A stretch of 64,000 bases of DNA from an uncultured Clostridium sp. (GTDB lineage Bacteria; Bacillota; Clostridia; Peptostreptococcales; Peptostreptococcaceae): positions 1 through 64,000 of the forward strand of contig CAMBXR010000009.1 of assembly GCA_945871955.1 (NCBI GenBank), written 5' to 3'. Below are positions 22,603 through 27,961 of this stretch, piece by piece (the first letter of the stretch is position 1; each line of letters begins with the position of its first letter). Position numbers and translations under genes: made by a program. The notes below the pieces were generated by a model. The model saw nothing but the letters and a program-made list of their open reading frames with translations. It had not been told where the DNA came from and did not search any database.

Positions 22603-23658
22603 TTATTGGATCATTCTACTAAATAATACAGAAGTCCATGTGGCATGAATTGTTATACCTAAAAAGACCTCCATACACACTAAAATTTTTCCTAAAATTC
22701 CTAAAACAATTATATCTCCATATCCCACAGTGCTAAAAGTAATCATAGAAAAATACCAAGCTTCTATATAAAATCTTATGAAATCTTTAAGTGTATACAT
22801 ATTATTAAATAAATTTATTTTAATCAGTCCATAATCCATGGTTTTTATTCCTGTAAACATATATATAAGAGCAAATAAACTTACTATAAAAAAACTTATT
22901 AAGAGCAGCTTAGCTGGCTTTTCTCCATATCCAATAAAATTTTTAGATAAAAAGTCAAAAAAGTTGTCGGCTAAAAATTCTCTATATCCGTTGTATTGTC
23001 TAGTTTTCATAAATTTACTTGTATAATTTCTTTCATTATAATAATAATATCCAATATTCTCATTATCTTCTGTTTGTTTAGCTTGAATTCGTGCAATTCT
23101 ATAATTATTTCTTCCACATATAACATTATCGTCATTATAATTTACATCTTTTAATATAAATTTAGTATATGGTGAAAAAACAATTCCATCTAATCTTGGA
23201 AAATAAGCACATTTCTCCACAATAAGTTTTTGTCCATTGAAATTTGATTTTTGAAATATTTGTTCATTTATGTATTTGGGATTAAATATAGTCTTATTAA
23301 ATACACAATTATTTAAAAAAGTTGAGTTCCTAAAATTAACATAGGATTTAAACTCTGTATTTGTAAAATCAACGGAATTTTCAAATATAAAATCACTAAA
23401 ATTAACATCTTCCTTAAATATTGATTCACAAAATTTTAGTTTTTCATATTTATAATTGACTATTTTATTGATATCAAATTTTTCTTCAAAATAAAATCCA
23501 GTAAAATCACTTATTTCTCCTTTTTTTATATAAGCTTCAAATAAGGCTATCTCTCTTGGACTTTTATTTTGTTTATGAAAAAGACAATACCCTGATGGGT
23601 CAGCATGTCTATAACATTTTATATTTTTGTCTTCTCTTGATGTCCATTTACAATTCAT
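22603..23658 (-). CDS. Pentapeptide-repeat protein fused to a two-TM potassium/ion channel domain
   Basis: N-terminal degenerate pentapeptide-like stretch (FCESIFKEDVNFSDFIFENSVDFTNTEFKSYVNFRNSTFLNN); C-terminal TM helices with pore motif TFSTVGYGDIIV. Confidence 0.85.
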   Translation of the reverse strand: MNCKWTSREDKNIKCYRHADPSGYCLFHKQNKSPREIALFEAYIKKGEISDFTGFYFEEKFDINKIVNYKYEKLKFCESIFKEDVNFSDFIFENSVDFTNTEFKSYVNFRNSTFLNNCVFNKTIFNPKYINEQIFQKSNFNGQKLIVEKCAYFPRLDGIVFSPYTKFILKDVNYNDDNVICGRNNYRIARIQAKQTEDNENIGYYYYNERNYTSKFMKTRQYNGYREFLADNFFDFLSKNFIGYGEKPAKLLLISFFIVSLFALIYMFTGIKTMDYGLIKINLFNNMYTLKDFIRFYIEAWYFSMITFSTVGYGDIIVLGILGKILVCMEVFLGITIHATWTSVLFSRMIQ

Positions 23659-24187: not shown

Positions 24188-24293
24188 TTGTATTAATCAT
24201 TATTATATGAATAAATTTTAACTTACATCCAATATACAAAATATGGTAATATTAAATTGTAAGGAATACTGCTTTTTAAGGGGTGAGTATTAT

Positions 24294-24800
24294 ATGTTTA
24301 AAATAAATGACTATATTATTTATGGTTCCATGAGCGTTTGTAAAGTTTTAGATATTATTGAAGAAGAAAATCCTTATATTGGACTGAAGTCTTATTATGT
24401 AATACAACCTGTTTATTCAGATAAAAGTACTATAATTAAAGTACCTGTGGATAATAAAAAAATATCCATGAGACATCTTCTTTCTAAAAACGAAATAATG
24501 TCTATCATTGAAAATATTCCTACTTTGGATCTCTTAGAAATAGATAACGAAAAGCAAAAAAGTGAACAATTTAAATCTATAATAAAAAGTAGTACATGTA
24601 CTAAATTAACCCAACTAATAAAAAGTATAAATAAAAGCGAAGAAGAAAGATTATCTCTTGGAAAGAAGTTATCTAAAACTGATGAGGACTTTAAAAAAAC
24701 TGCACAAAAGCTAATTAATGAAGAATTTGCCACTGTTTTAAATATACCTGTTGAAGATGTCCCTTCTTTTATTTTAAATCATTTACATCAAAAAAATTAA
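24294..24800 (+). CDS. CarD/CdnL-like transcriptional regulator
   Basis: FKINDYIIYGSMSVCKVLDI...YYVIQPVYSDKSTIIKVPVDN resembles the CarD/TRCF RNAP-interacting domain; likely start ATG 24294 after aaggggtgagtatt. Confidence 0.75.
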   Translation: MFKINDYIIYGSMSVCKVLDIIEEENPYIGLKSYYVIQPVYSDKSTIIKVPVDNKKISMRHLLSKNEIMSIIENIPTLDLLEIDNEKQKSEQFKSIIKSSTCTKLTQLIKSINKSEEERLSLGKKLSKTDEDFKKTAQKLINEEFATVLNIPVEDVPSFILNHLHQKN

Positions 24801-24921: not shown

Positions 24922-24952
24922 AAAAGGAGCTGAATTTTTTCAGCTCCTTTTT
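24922..24952. terminator. Intrinsic terminator
   Basis: aaaaggagctga-atttttt-cagctccttttt between convergent genes. Confidence 0.75.
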
Positions 24953-24966
24953 CAATTTCAAGTAAA

Positions 24967-26727
24967 TTATATTTCATTGAAATAATCAAATAATGTAAAT
25001 GATTCTTCTGGAGTAAAACTTTCAAGTCTATCTTTTGCTAATTTAATATACCAAGATTTATCTAATTTATCAGGTATTTCTTTATTAATTACATTGCTAT
25101 TATCGATAAAAACTCTATCTGGAGTATAACTTATCTTTTCTAGTTTTCCATCACTTTTCATCTTCATTATGGCATTATCACCACTAGATTTGCTGGCAAA
25201 TATCCTAAAAACTTTTAGATAAATTTCTTCTTTTCCATAAACTGCATGACTATATTTTCCTGTTATTTTAACGCATTTTTGAAAATCCATTAGGTTGTTA
25301 CTGTTATTTATGGTGCTTTCTACATCAATATTATTGATAAGTTTTTCCTTTATGGCTTTATTTACAATAGGCAAATCATTATCTATTAAACTTAAATCCT
25401 TCACATAAGCACCCTTACTTTTTACTTTACCATCTTGTTTTACATATATATAATTATTCACATCTTTTTGAATAATCTTTTTTATAAAGTCATGTTCTAA
25501 ATTCATTTTAGTTCTTCCAGACCACTTTTCACATATTTCAAGATACTTATCAACGTCTTCTTTAGAATTAAATTTAAACATTACTCCATCTGTATTTCCT
25601 TGTATAAACTCTGCTCTATCTCCAAATTCCAGTTCAACTTTTTCTATTAAATCAAGAAGTAATAACTGGCCATTCACACAAATTCCTATACCTTGTCTTT
25701 GATCATATAAATCATTATTCACATCTAAACAAGCACCATAAGTAGAGTTAAGTACAAGTTTTAGAGACTTTTCTATGGGATTATGTTCACTTTTAAATTT
25801 AAATCTTGTATCTCTTATTTCCTTAAATTTATAAGGGTTTTGTACATTTCTACTAAGTAGATTGTATTCAATCATTATGGATGGATAAAAAGAGCTAACA
25901 TCTGAGTTTACTATAAAATCTTCACCCTTATATTTCTTTCTAGCTGAATGAAGACCTCCCCATCCAAAATCCGTATCAACTCCATATACATTTACTCTTA
26001 AGTATTTTTTAAAGTCTCTGTTATCATAATCTTCATACCAAAGCTTAACATTATTATATTTACTTAATTCAATAATATTTATTATTTCAAAATCACTTGC
26101 ATCATCTCTTTTATAGTTAGGTTTTTTTGCACCTAGTATATAAGCACTAAGCTGTGCCTCAGTTTTATTAAATAGTGAATCATCTAAATTAAAATATTCT
26201 ATTAAACCTAATTGAGCTTCATACTTATAATAAACTTCTTTAAATACTTTATAAGTCATTCTCACATCATGAAGACAATAAGCTGTAAGCTCCTCAATTT
26301 CTTCCTTTGTTGGATATCTATTTAAATCAAAAGGTACACTACTTTCCCTTATATCTTCACCCATAAATAACTCCAACTCTTTTAAACTTCTGTAACTATC
26401 ATTTAGTTCAAAAATATACATTGGAATTCTATTTAGATTTCTATCAATTTGATATGGAGACATATTTCGTTCTATAAGTTTGTCTGATACCATACATGGA
26501 TCTATTCCTGCAATTATGGATTTCATTATCCACTGATCATAACCCCTTATATTGTACCCAACCCAAATGGAGTCTTTATTTTTATTAAAAACCCTAATTA
26601 ATTCTTCTCTATTATTAATGATAATATGCTCTTTTTCTGTTTTGTAATCTTTCATACAACACATCCAAAATCCACATTTAGACAATACTTCGAAGTCAAT
26701 AATTATACGTCTTCTCTCTTTTTTCAT
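24967..26727 (-). CDS. Compact family-B-like DNA polymerase with 3'-5' exonuclease motifs (phage-type)
   Basis: Exo I IIIDFEVL (DxE), Exo II GYNIRGYDQ, Exo III YCLHDVRMTY; Pol motif A NSDVSSFYPS, motif B KLVLNSTYGA, motif C variant QGNTDGVMF. Confidence 0.8.
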   Translation of the reverse strand: MKKERRRIIIDFEVLSKCGFWMCCMKDYKTEKEHIIINNREELIRVFNKNKDSIWVGYNIRGYDQWIMKSIIAGIDPCMVSDKLIERNMSPYQIDRNLNRIPMYIFELNDSYRSLKELELFMGEDIRESSVPFDLNRYPTKEEIEELTAYCLHDVRMTYKVFKEVYYKYEAQLGLIEYFNLDDSLFNKTEAQLSAYILGAKKPNYKRDDASDFEIINIIELSKYNNVKLWYEDYDNRDFKKYLRVNVYGVDTDFGWGGLHSARKKYKGEDFIVNSDVSSFYPSIMIEYNLLSRNVQNPYKFKEIRDTRFKFKSEHNPIEKSLKLVLNSTYGACLDVNNDLYDQRQGIGICVNGQLLLLDLIEKVELEFGDRAEFIQGNTDGVMFKFNSKEDVDKYLEICEKWSGRTKMNLEHDFIKKIIQKDVNNYIYVKQDGKVKSKGAYVKDLSLIDNDLPIVNKAIKEKLINNIDVESTINNSNNLMDFQKCVKITGKYSHAVYGKEEIYLKVFRIFASKSSGDNAIMKMKSDGKLEKISYTPDRVFIDNSNVINKEIPDKLDKSWYIKLAKDRLESFTPEESFTLFDYFNEI

Positions 26728-26817: not shown

Positions 26818-26868
26818 AAAGGAGTTGTCTCAAAATAATTTAAAAATCATTTTGAGACAACTCCTTTA
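26818..26868 (-). terminator. Hairpin terminator downstream of the bactofilin-like gene
   Basis: aaaggagttgtctcaaaat ... attttgagacaactccttt, perfect 19-bp stem. Confidence 0.75.
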
Positions 26869-26875
26869 ATTAATT

Positions 26876-27961
26876 TTATATTCTTTTTTCTTTATATTTT
26901 ATTGATTGATAAAAAGTATATACTAAAAATCCTTGAACAATCATTCCACTTACTACCCAAACAAAACCACCTATCATCGGCAATAAACTTAGTAGTCTTA
27001 CTACTAATATACCAATAAATAATTGTAAATATGGATTTTTACCTTTAAGTACAAGTCTTCCTAAAATTATTCCCATTACTACTGGAGATAAATATACTAC
27101 TATAAAATACATCAAAAGTGATAGCATTCCAAGAGGTAAGCCTATTATAGTAATAAATAATAATAAACTAGCTATTGGTACTAATATAAATGATGCAATA
27201 CCTCCAAATACTATTGGAAGCGGCTCCTTAACTAATAGTTCATCGCTGTTTATAAAGAATTTTTTAAATATAGAATATATTACAAATCCCAATATTAATG
27301 ATGCTAAAATAGATATAATTGTTGAAAATCCCATAAAAGTTTTTAACGTATTTTCATCTTGAGAGTTATCTATTGCAGTATATTTTATATCATTCATACT
27401 AACTTTAGAATTAACAATAGGTTCCTTAGGTGAATATACCTCAATTTCACCAGATACTTCACCATTATCTGCAATTATTAACTCATTACAACTCACACTA
27501 ACATTTCCATCAATTTTACCATTAATAATTATAGTTCCACCCGTTGCATAAAGTCCCTTACAACTACCTTTAAAGTTGATATTCTGTCCTGCAAGATATA
27601 CACCATTGGCAACAGTATTTTCATCTATATTAATATTTTGTGCTGCTAATGTAATATTTTTTATATTTTTACTATTTATATTTATAGTTTGAGCTGCACA
27701 TCTAATATTACCATTTACTTCTTTTGAATTTATGTTTACTATTTCACCTGCAATTATAGCATCACCTTTTACATTGTCCCTTACTTGTACTTTTCTTCCA
27801 GCAGAATAAACATCTCCAAATACTTCTTTTGTAATATTAACATTTTCATCAAAAACAAAGTAATTGGATGCACTGTCTACACTATCTGCAAAAACATTTG
27901 TAACAAACAATATCATCACAAATAATGTTAATACAAAAACCCCTTTTTTCTTCATAAACAT
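26876..27961 (-). CDS. Polymer-forming (bactofilin-like) domain protein with signal peptide and C-terminal TM helices
   Basis: Beta-solenoid-like repeats (GDAIIAGEIVNINSKEVNGNIRCAAQTININ...; IINGKIDGNVSVSCNELIIADNGEVSGEIEV), then several TM segments. Confidence 0.75.
   Translation of the reverse strand: MFMKKKGVFVLTLFVMILFVTNVFADSVDSASNYFVFDENVNITKEVFGDVYSAGRKVQVRDNVKGDAIIAGEIVNINSKEVNGNIRCAAQTININSKNIKNITLAAQNINIDENTVANGVYLAGQNINFKGSCKGLYATGGTIIINGKIDGNVSVSCNELIIADNGEVSGEIEVYSPKEPIVNSKVSMNDIKYTAIDNSQDENTLKTFMGFSTIISILASLILGFVIYSIFKKFFINSDELLVKEPLPIVFGGIASFILVPIASLLLFITIIGLPLGMLSLLMYFIVVYLSPVVMGIILGRLVLKGKNPYLQLFIGILVVRLLSLLPMIGGFVWVVSGMIVQGFLVYTFYQSIKYKEKRI

Follow-up and report, generated by a model that had tools for sequence, protein, structure and literature searches.

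A compact phage-type B-family DNA polymerase kept as a stand-alone gene in Peptostreptococcaceae, with a predicted DinB-like clamp-binding tail

Introduction

B-family DNA polymerases (PolBs) are described in the main texts of two surveys (PMC12926913, PMC7544198) as rare and virus-derived in bacteria, where they form groups G1-G3 and minor groups without an N-terminal domain. One member, E. coli Pol II of group G1, is an accessory-type enzyme encoded on the chromosome that combines proofreading with a probable clamp motif. Among phages, the closest described enzymes are the polymerases of PHROG 1252 (Paenibacillus phage Wanderer, Staphylococcus phage PI-Sepi-HH2, clostridial prophages); other groups for comparison are a crAss-like one (EpsilonN-like clade), reported to have profound differences in motif C and in the KxY region (PMC7544198), and the protein-primed phi29-type enzymes, which have a TPR1 insertion and a DTDS motif C.

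Here we describe a PolB gene in a 64,000-nucleotide stretch of an uncultured Clostridium sp. genome (contig CAMBXR010000009.1; hereafter the window). It shares with the PHROG 1252 phage polymerases full-length homology of 44-50%, a compact exonuclease-plus-polymerase architecture, an NTDG motif C and the KxY region, but these lack its C-terminal TLFD tail, and their prophage copies lie in a replication module whereas the window copy stands alone on the chromosome. Homology to the crAss-like group is recognisable but only at about 23-31% identity, and the NTDG motif C is common to both. It has in common with phi29-type enzymes the B family and the pairing of exonuclease and polymerase, but motifs A and B lie too close together, DTDS is replaced and no terminal-protein gene was seen. 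Like E. coli Pol II it lies on the chromosome and has a proofreading domain, and its tail may supply a clamp motif. In contrast to that enzyme, it lacks an N-terminal domain (586 aa, starting from Exo I) and a LexA box, its fingers are short, NTDG takes the place of DTDS and its ancestry is phage; it is not an orthologue (PMC12926913). It resembles the minor bacterial groups of Timinskas et al. 2026 in having no N-terminal domain and, like most of them, in keeping the proofreader, and the main text of that paper names no Peptostreptococcaceae or Bacillota PolB group (PMC12926913). Neither such a Peptostreptococcaceae group nor a phage-derived polymerase with a DinB-type tail is named in the main texts of PMC12926913 and PMC7544198 or appeared in the literature searched, which yielded nothing on this group.

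Results

A solitary gene between a carD-like gene and a membrane operon

The polymerase gene (24967..26727, minus strand, ATG start) encodes 586 aa with predicted 3'-5' exonuclease and polymerase functions, and both the open reading frame and every motif named in the preliminary description are present. Its flanks are also as first read: on one side a CarD-like gene (24243..24800, plus strand; Pfam CarD_TRCF_RID, E 5.5e-8), which is kept beside the polymerase in Terrisporobacter and is treated here as a flank only, and on the other a membrane operon with a gene for a bactofilin-like membrane protein (26876-27961, minus strand). Integrase, terminase and capsid genes had been noted as missing nearby, and we find none of these, nor any tRNA gene, in the stretch from 20 to 33 kb of the window. 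Of the terminators proposed on both sides, the upstream one is a strong hairpin between the bactofilin-like gene and the polymerase (26820..26865, minus strand) recovered by a terminator scan; the downstream one, between the convergent carD-like and polymerase genes (24923..24950), can be read from the sequence, is absent from the scan's list, and is probably a bidirectional terminator.

No LexA-like box (GAACN4GTTC, at most one mismatch) occurs in the 160 bp upstream of 19 polymerase copies, which gives no hint of the SOS control found for Pol II. A sporulation sigma-F promoter considered upstream of the window gene (GGTAAAATATA) was rejected as inconsistent across orthologues by eye. Elsewhere in the window, positions 22603-23658 encode a protein, conserved in Terrisporobacter, in which pentapeptide repeats are joined to a two-helix ion channel domain (Pfam Pentapeptide_3, Ion_trans_2).

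A phage-type polymerase with invariant catalytic residues

Profile searches, which had been suggested as a check on the family, returned a full-length match to phrog_1252 (phage DNA polymerase; residues 3-575, E 1.1e-137), sub-threshold matches only to Pfam DNApol_Exo and DNA_pol_B, and no match in NCBIfam, pointing to a polymerase of phage type. A profile built for the family matches archaeal PolB, Pol alpha and E. coli Pol II; single-sequence search gave no solved relatives. The AlphaFold (AF2) model, the second check suggested, is a confident one (pLDDT 89.7, pTM 0.84) of a compact polymerase with a disordered C-terminal tail, and Foldseek matched it both to PolBs of phages, with a TMq of 0.87 and E 1e-46, and, at E ~1e-14, to those of archaea. 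The IME199 DNA polymerase was considered as a characterised relative and ruled out, as it is a 95-kDa phi29-like enzyme. Profiles and predicted fold together identify a compact polymerase of the B family and of phage type (PHROG 1252).

To assess residue invariance we aligned 16 stand-alone copies with 5 from prophages; every exonuclease and polymerase catalytic residue is invariant across the stand-alone group. On the minus strand of the window these comprise Exo I (D11-F-E13; 26689..26697), Exo II (N59-x4-D64; 26536..26553) and Exo III (Y150-x3-D154; 26266..26280), motif A (D276VSSFYPS, residues 276-283; 25879..25902), with D276, Y281 and P282 invariant, motif B (K323LVLNSTYG, residues 323-331; 25735..25761), with K323, N327 and G331 invariant, and a KxY-like motif (QK421DVNNY426; 25450..25470). 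Motifs A and B are separated by 47 residues, against the roughly 48 first estimated, which leaves no space for a TPR1 insertion, as had been argued.

Motif C reads QGNTDG (residues 376-381; 25585..25602, minus strand). Because the family profile places it exactly over the YGDTDS of solved B-family polymerases (Sso Dpo1 and Pol alpha; E. coli Pol II more weakly), the preliminary description was right to read an Asp-to-Asn change, at N378. In the B-family mechanism the second Asp of DTDS is an essential metal ligand, and this metal-binding residue is retained as the catalytic D380. Q376, N378, T379, D380 and G381 are unchanged in stand-alone and prophage copies alike (21-sequence alignment), and NTDG occurs in almost all of 194 relatives as well as in distant phage PolBs from CAjan, NP1, barbavirus and crAss-like phages, Efquatrovirus having NTDA. 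As far as these alignments reach, then, an NTDG motif C is a family-wide phage trait and nothing special to the window gene, about which the substitution is therefore uninformative: it gives no support to the earlier suggestion that the variant marks specialisation, and degeneration is ruled out by its presence across the family.

A single stand-alone clade nested among phage polymerases

Of 71 Peptostreptococcaceae genomes, 20, belonging to 11 genera, have a stand-alone orthologue at 64-87% identity (in Terrisporobacter, Romboutsia, Metaclostridioides, Faecalimicrobium and other Peptostreptococcaceae), so that the word "orphan" used for the gene at the outset suits its gene context but not its distribution. 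The polymerase is missing from the other 51 of the 71 and is therefore dispensable. Eighteen of the 20 copies are undisrupted, one of them (in G001) being split over two contigs, and the remaining two (G033, G060) have a common poly-A frameshift at codon 313, with an additional stop in one. These two frameshifted genes (loci L049 and L048, respectively) come from different genera and are 93% identical in nucleotides, which may reflect the transfer of a pseudogene or else a slippery site.

Wherever both flanks of a Terrisporobacter copy are assembled, the gene occupies the same locus as in the window, close to tsf-rpsB and the bactofilin-like operon; the synteny comparison suggested earlier yields one fixed locus in this genus and a different picture outside it, where the neighbours (YgjP, S30AE, CorC, GGDEF, OGG, MatE, ABC-F) vary at nearly every locus. 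The locus might have been a prophage in other strains, but no phage genes were found among the classified neighbours at any stand-alone locus examined. A second group of polymerases, at 43-47% identity, lies inside phage replication modules together with genes for a primase, an SSB, an exonuclease and a helicase; such a module never accompanies the stand-alone copies. This difference in context argues for a cellular offshoot of the PHROG 1252 family rather than a phage gene.

The window's own genome holds a polymerase of the prophage type, with 43-46% identity to the stand-alone one, on its contig 47 (L052). There, genes for a primase, SSB, an exonuclease/annealing protein and a helicase surround a polB interrupted by a 280-nt group I intron (L052:4337-4616, minus strand; Rfam RF00028, with 42.7 bits at E 8e-10, short of the gathering score of 50), which sits exactly in the motif C codons, between QS and NTDG, and whose removal by exon joining restores one open frame. 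Larger relatives of about 880 aa and 31-35% identity, with a long additional C-terminal region, were seen in two further genomes (L059 in G030 and L222 in G109).

In a tree of 146 proteins, the 17 stand-alone sequences form one clade (SH-aLRT 100) on a long stem (0.59), nested within clostridial phage/prophage PolBs, and a single supported clade in this position points to one capture. IMG/VR contains no viral relative above 50% identity.

Purifying selection and lone-gene transfer

For almost all pairs of polymerases dN/dS is 0.05-0.13, the same range as for the core gene dxr, with dS above 0.3 in most pairs; the lone exception, G015-G046, has a dS of 0.04 and too little synonymous change to judge. 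The stand-alone polymerase is kept intact under purifying selection, and on the strength of dN/dS, context and tree we reject a prophage remnant. The preliminary description had suggested a domesticated phage polymerase, and domestication by Peptostreptococcaceae is well supported by comparative sequence evidence: one nested clade, no phage neighbours, synteny in Terrisporobacter, low dN/dS and no virus above 50% identity.

The polymerase also moves horizontally, as follows from near-identical copies in unrelated contexts: those of G015 and G046 are 98.1% identical in nucleotides, against 83.9% (dS 1.06) for dxr, which is 16% apart. For the cross-genus pairs G013-G015 and G048-G015 the polymerases are 91-92% identical and dxr 72-75% (92% versus 75% for G013-G015). 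Outside Terrisporobacter it is passed between species as a lone gene. Within the Metaclostridioides clade, the DNA in common extends upstream for about 180-444 bp, to a point within a decaying ABC-F gene, and downstream for mostly 8-43 bp after the polymerase stop codon; further out the flanks are unrelated. A mobile element with fixed ends was considered and rejected: the decayed ABC-F stretch has different break points in each genome of this clade, and transfer of a lone gene therefore fits better than a transposon.

Two observations bear on individual loci. In the g9 genomes (Clostridium sp. CCUG 7971 and Faecalimicrobium dakarense; L043/L049) the polymerase is preceded by an intact gene for an ABC-F-type ATPase, and in related genera (L044, L045, L046, L048) by truncated remnants of that gene. 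Romboutsia timonensis (G043) has a 9-kb island (L041:6538-15689) with 2.5 tandem identical polymerase copies and small cyclase-domain genes; it is absent from Romboutsia G006, an empty site in which the island's flanks are joined (query positions 2538 and 11689 adjacent at G006:C1:1375551-1375555). With 100% identity among the copies and in some of the flanks, the arrangement may be an assembly artefact.

A C-terminal tail that resembles the end of DinB

The chain of the window polymerase ends in ESFTLFDYFNEI, within which S576FTLFDYF583 (24979..25002, minus strand), disordered in the AlphaFold model, is a predicted sliding-clamp-binding motif. Other stand-alone tails read PEITLFDLLN and QGATLFDFL; all intact stand-alone copies follow the pattern x-[FYIA]-T-L-F-D-[YFL], with TLFD invariant. 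The TLFD tail occurs in none of the phage/prophage relatives, which stop about 12 residues earlier or have unrelated tails. Searching 428 non-redundant ORF tails from polymerase loci with [FIYVLA]T[LI]F[DE][YFL] gave 20 matches, every one a stand-alone polymerase, and none among the other 408.

DinB, by precedent, carries its clamp motif at the C-terminus. In the same bacterial family DinB tails have the consensus N-I-[TS]-[LI]-F-E-Y-I (NITLFEYID in Terrisporobacter, NISLFEYINN in the window genome, NITIFEYI or NVTIFEYI in Romboutsia and others), giving polymerase and DinB tails a common core of [IFYV]-[TS]-[LI]-F-[DE]-[YFL]. The DinB of Romboutsia timonensis (NITISEY) is off the pattern, and the Metaclostridioides Y-family sequences fetched do not end in NITLFEY, so the match is not seen in every host genus. 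There is no pattern of DinB loss where the stand-alone polymerase occurs.

Clamp motifs of polymerases have been described (PMC4564189); the clamp consensus is QxxLF, of which DnaE3 (xxxLF) keeps only LF (PMC12309361). The Gln usual at position 1 is missing from the tail described here, a canonical QLSLF closes the host PolC, and dnaN is present as a single copy. Among the phage relatives, three IMG/VR contigs (L207, L211, L214) and the crAss-like phage cr130_1 (L277) have a canonical QLELF at the same place, which suggests that some phages of this polymerase family may use the host clamp; in Queuovirinae relatives a clamp gene adjoins the polymerase gene. On the simplest view of these comparisons, the TLFD tail would be a DinB-type host clamp motif gained on domestication.

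Discussion

Computation on the genomes shows that the polymerase came from phages, forms one clade, retains its catalytic residues, is under purifying selection, is transferred horizontally and has a tail that matches DinB. We think it fairly probable, with some reserve, that behind them lies a phage-derived, stand-alone accessory polymerase recruited by the host clamp through a DinB-like tail. A phage replicative PolB of PHROG 1252 type would have been captured once by a Peptostreptococcaceae ancestor and become a chromosomal accessory enzyme. If enzymatically active, it would extend primers by the two-metal B-family mechanism, using D276 of motif A and D380 of motif C, and proofread with its own 3'-5' exonuclease. 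The short disordered tail (xFTLFDYF), mimicking that of the host DinB, may tether the polymerase to DnaN and so replace the phage replisome as its means of recruitment, so that, in the manner of E. coli Pol II, it could take charge of the clamp at stalled or damaged forks. The DinB-like predicted clamp tail favours an accessory polymerase, which may have a role in repair. Against this explanation count the lack of a LexA-like box, the absence of the gene from 51 of 71 genomes, the two frameshifted copies, and the Metaclostridioides Y-family sequences that do not share the DinB tail.

The tail is also where this explanation is most open to an alternative, namely that it interacts with a partner other than the clamp, or serves in C-terminal packing, while the polymerase works alone. 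The missing Gln at position 1, beside a host PolC motif of QLSLF, speaks for this, but the tail is disordered in the model, its core is that of DinB tails, a few relatives have QLELF at the same place and Queuovirinae relatives keep a clamp gene beside the polymerase, all of which leave a tail without clamp function unlikely, though still a serious contender. Less probable again is that the gene is a lone mobile cargo that moves as many defence genes do and whose benefit lies not in DNA repair but in conflict with plasmids or phages, for instance through competition for the clamp or by poisoning the replication of phages. Near-identical polymerases in unrelated contexts (98.1% in nucleotides for G015-G046), flanks that are unrelated beyond about -180/+43 bp, and a patchy distribution (20 of 71 genomes) would all fit such a cargo, and phage ancestry would suit interference; yet the polymerase has no match in PADLOC-DB at E 0.1, the neighbours sampled include no defence genes, and in Terrisporobacter the gene occupies one fixed syntenic locus.

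Impaired catalysis would be suspected from the replacement of the first Asp of DTDS by Asn, and archaeal PolB2, also with one motif-C Asp, was long thought inactive (PMC7544198), so that the protein could be a poor or dead polymerase whose main function is that of a 3'-5' exonuclease or of a structural ligand for the clamp. This we regard as very improbable: primer-independent PolBs without the first motif-C Asp are highly active (PMC7544198), the replication modules examined have just one identified polymerase, and it carries NTDG, and D276, D380, K323 and Y426 are all invariant. That the gene is a neutral, decaying leftover of a prophage is hardly credible. It is a phage-type polymerase, two relatives have the same codon-313 poly-A frameshift, one with a further stop, and a true prophage polymerase at 43-46% identity lies elsewhere in the window's genome, but the dN/dS values of 0.05-0.13, at dS above 0.3 in most pairs, largely refute decay, and 18 copies are undisrupted (that of G001 split over two contigs), the clade-specific tail is conserved, and the loci examined hold no phage genes, replication modules being the setting of prophage-type copies and never of stand-alone ones.

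Returning to the clamp-recruited accessory polymerase, we also consider it a little better than an even guess that these genes constitute a new cellular PolB group, in which a phage replicase would have gained a DinB-type tail in one event and then spread in Peptostreptococcaceae by repeated lone-gene transfer. How a viral replicase turns into a repair enzyme of its host can seldom be observed. In this one bacterial family the donor family, a single capture, an intact enzyme and the likely molecular change, a clamp tail copying that of DinB, can all be seen, and sequenced relatives without the polymerase exist in the same family. With capture, donor and likely tail change in view, the domestication of a polymerase, and the way in which a foreign polymerase may gain access to the host clamp, become directly testable.
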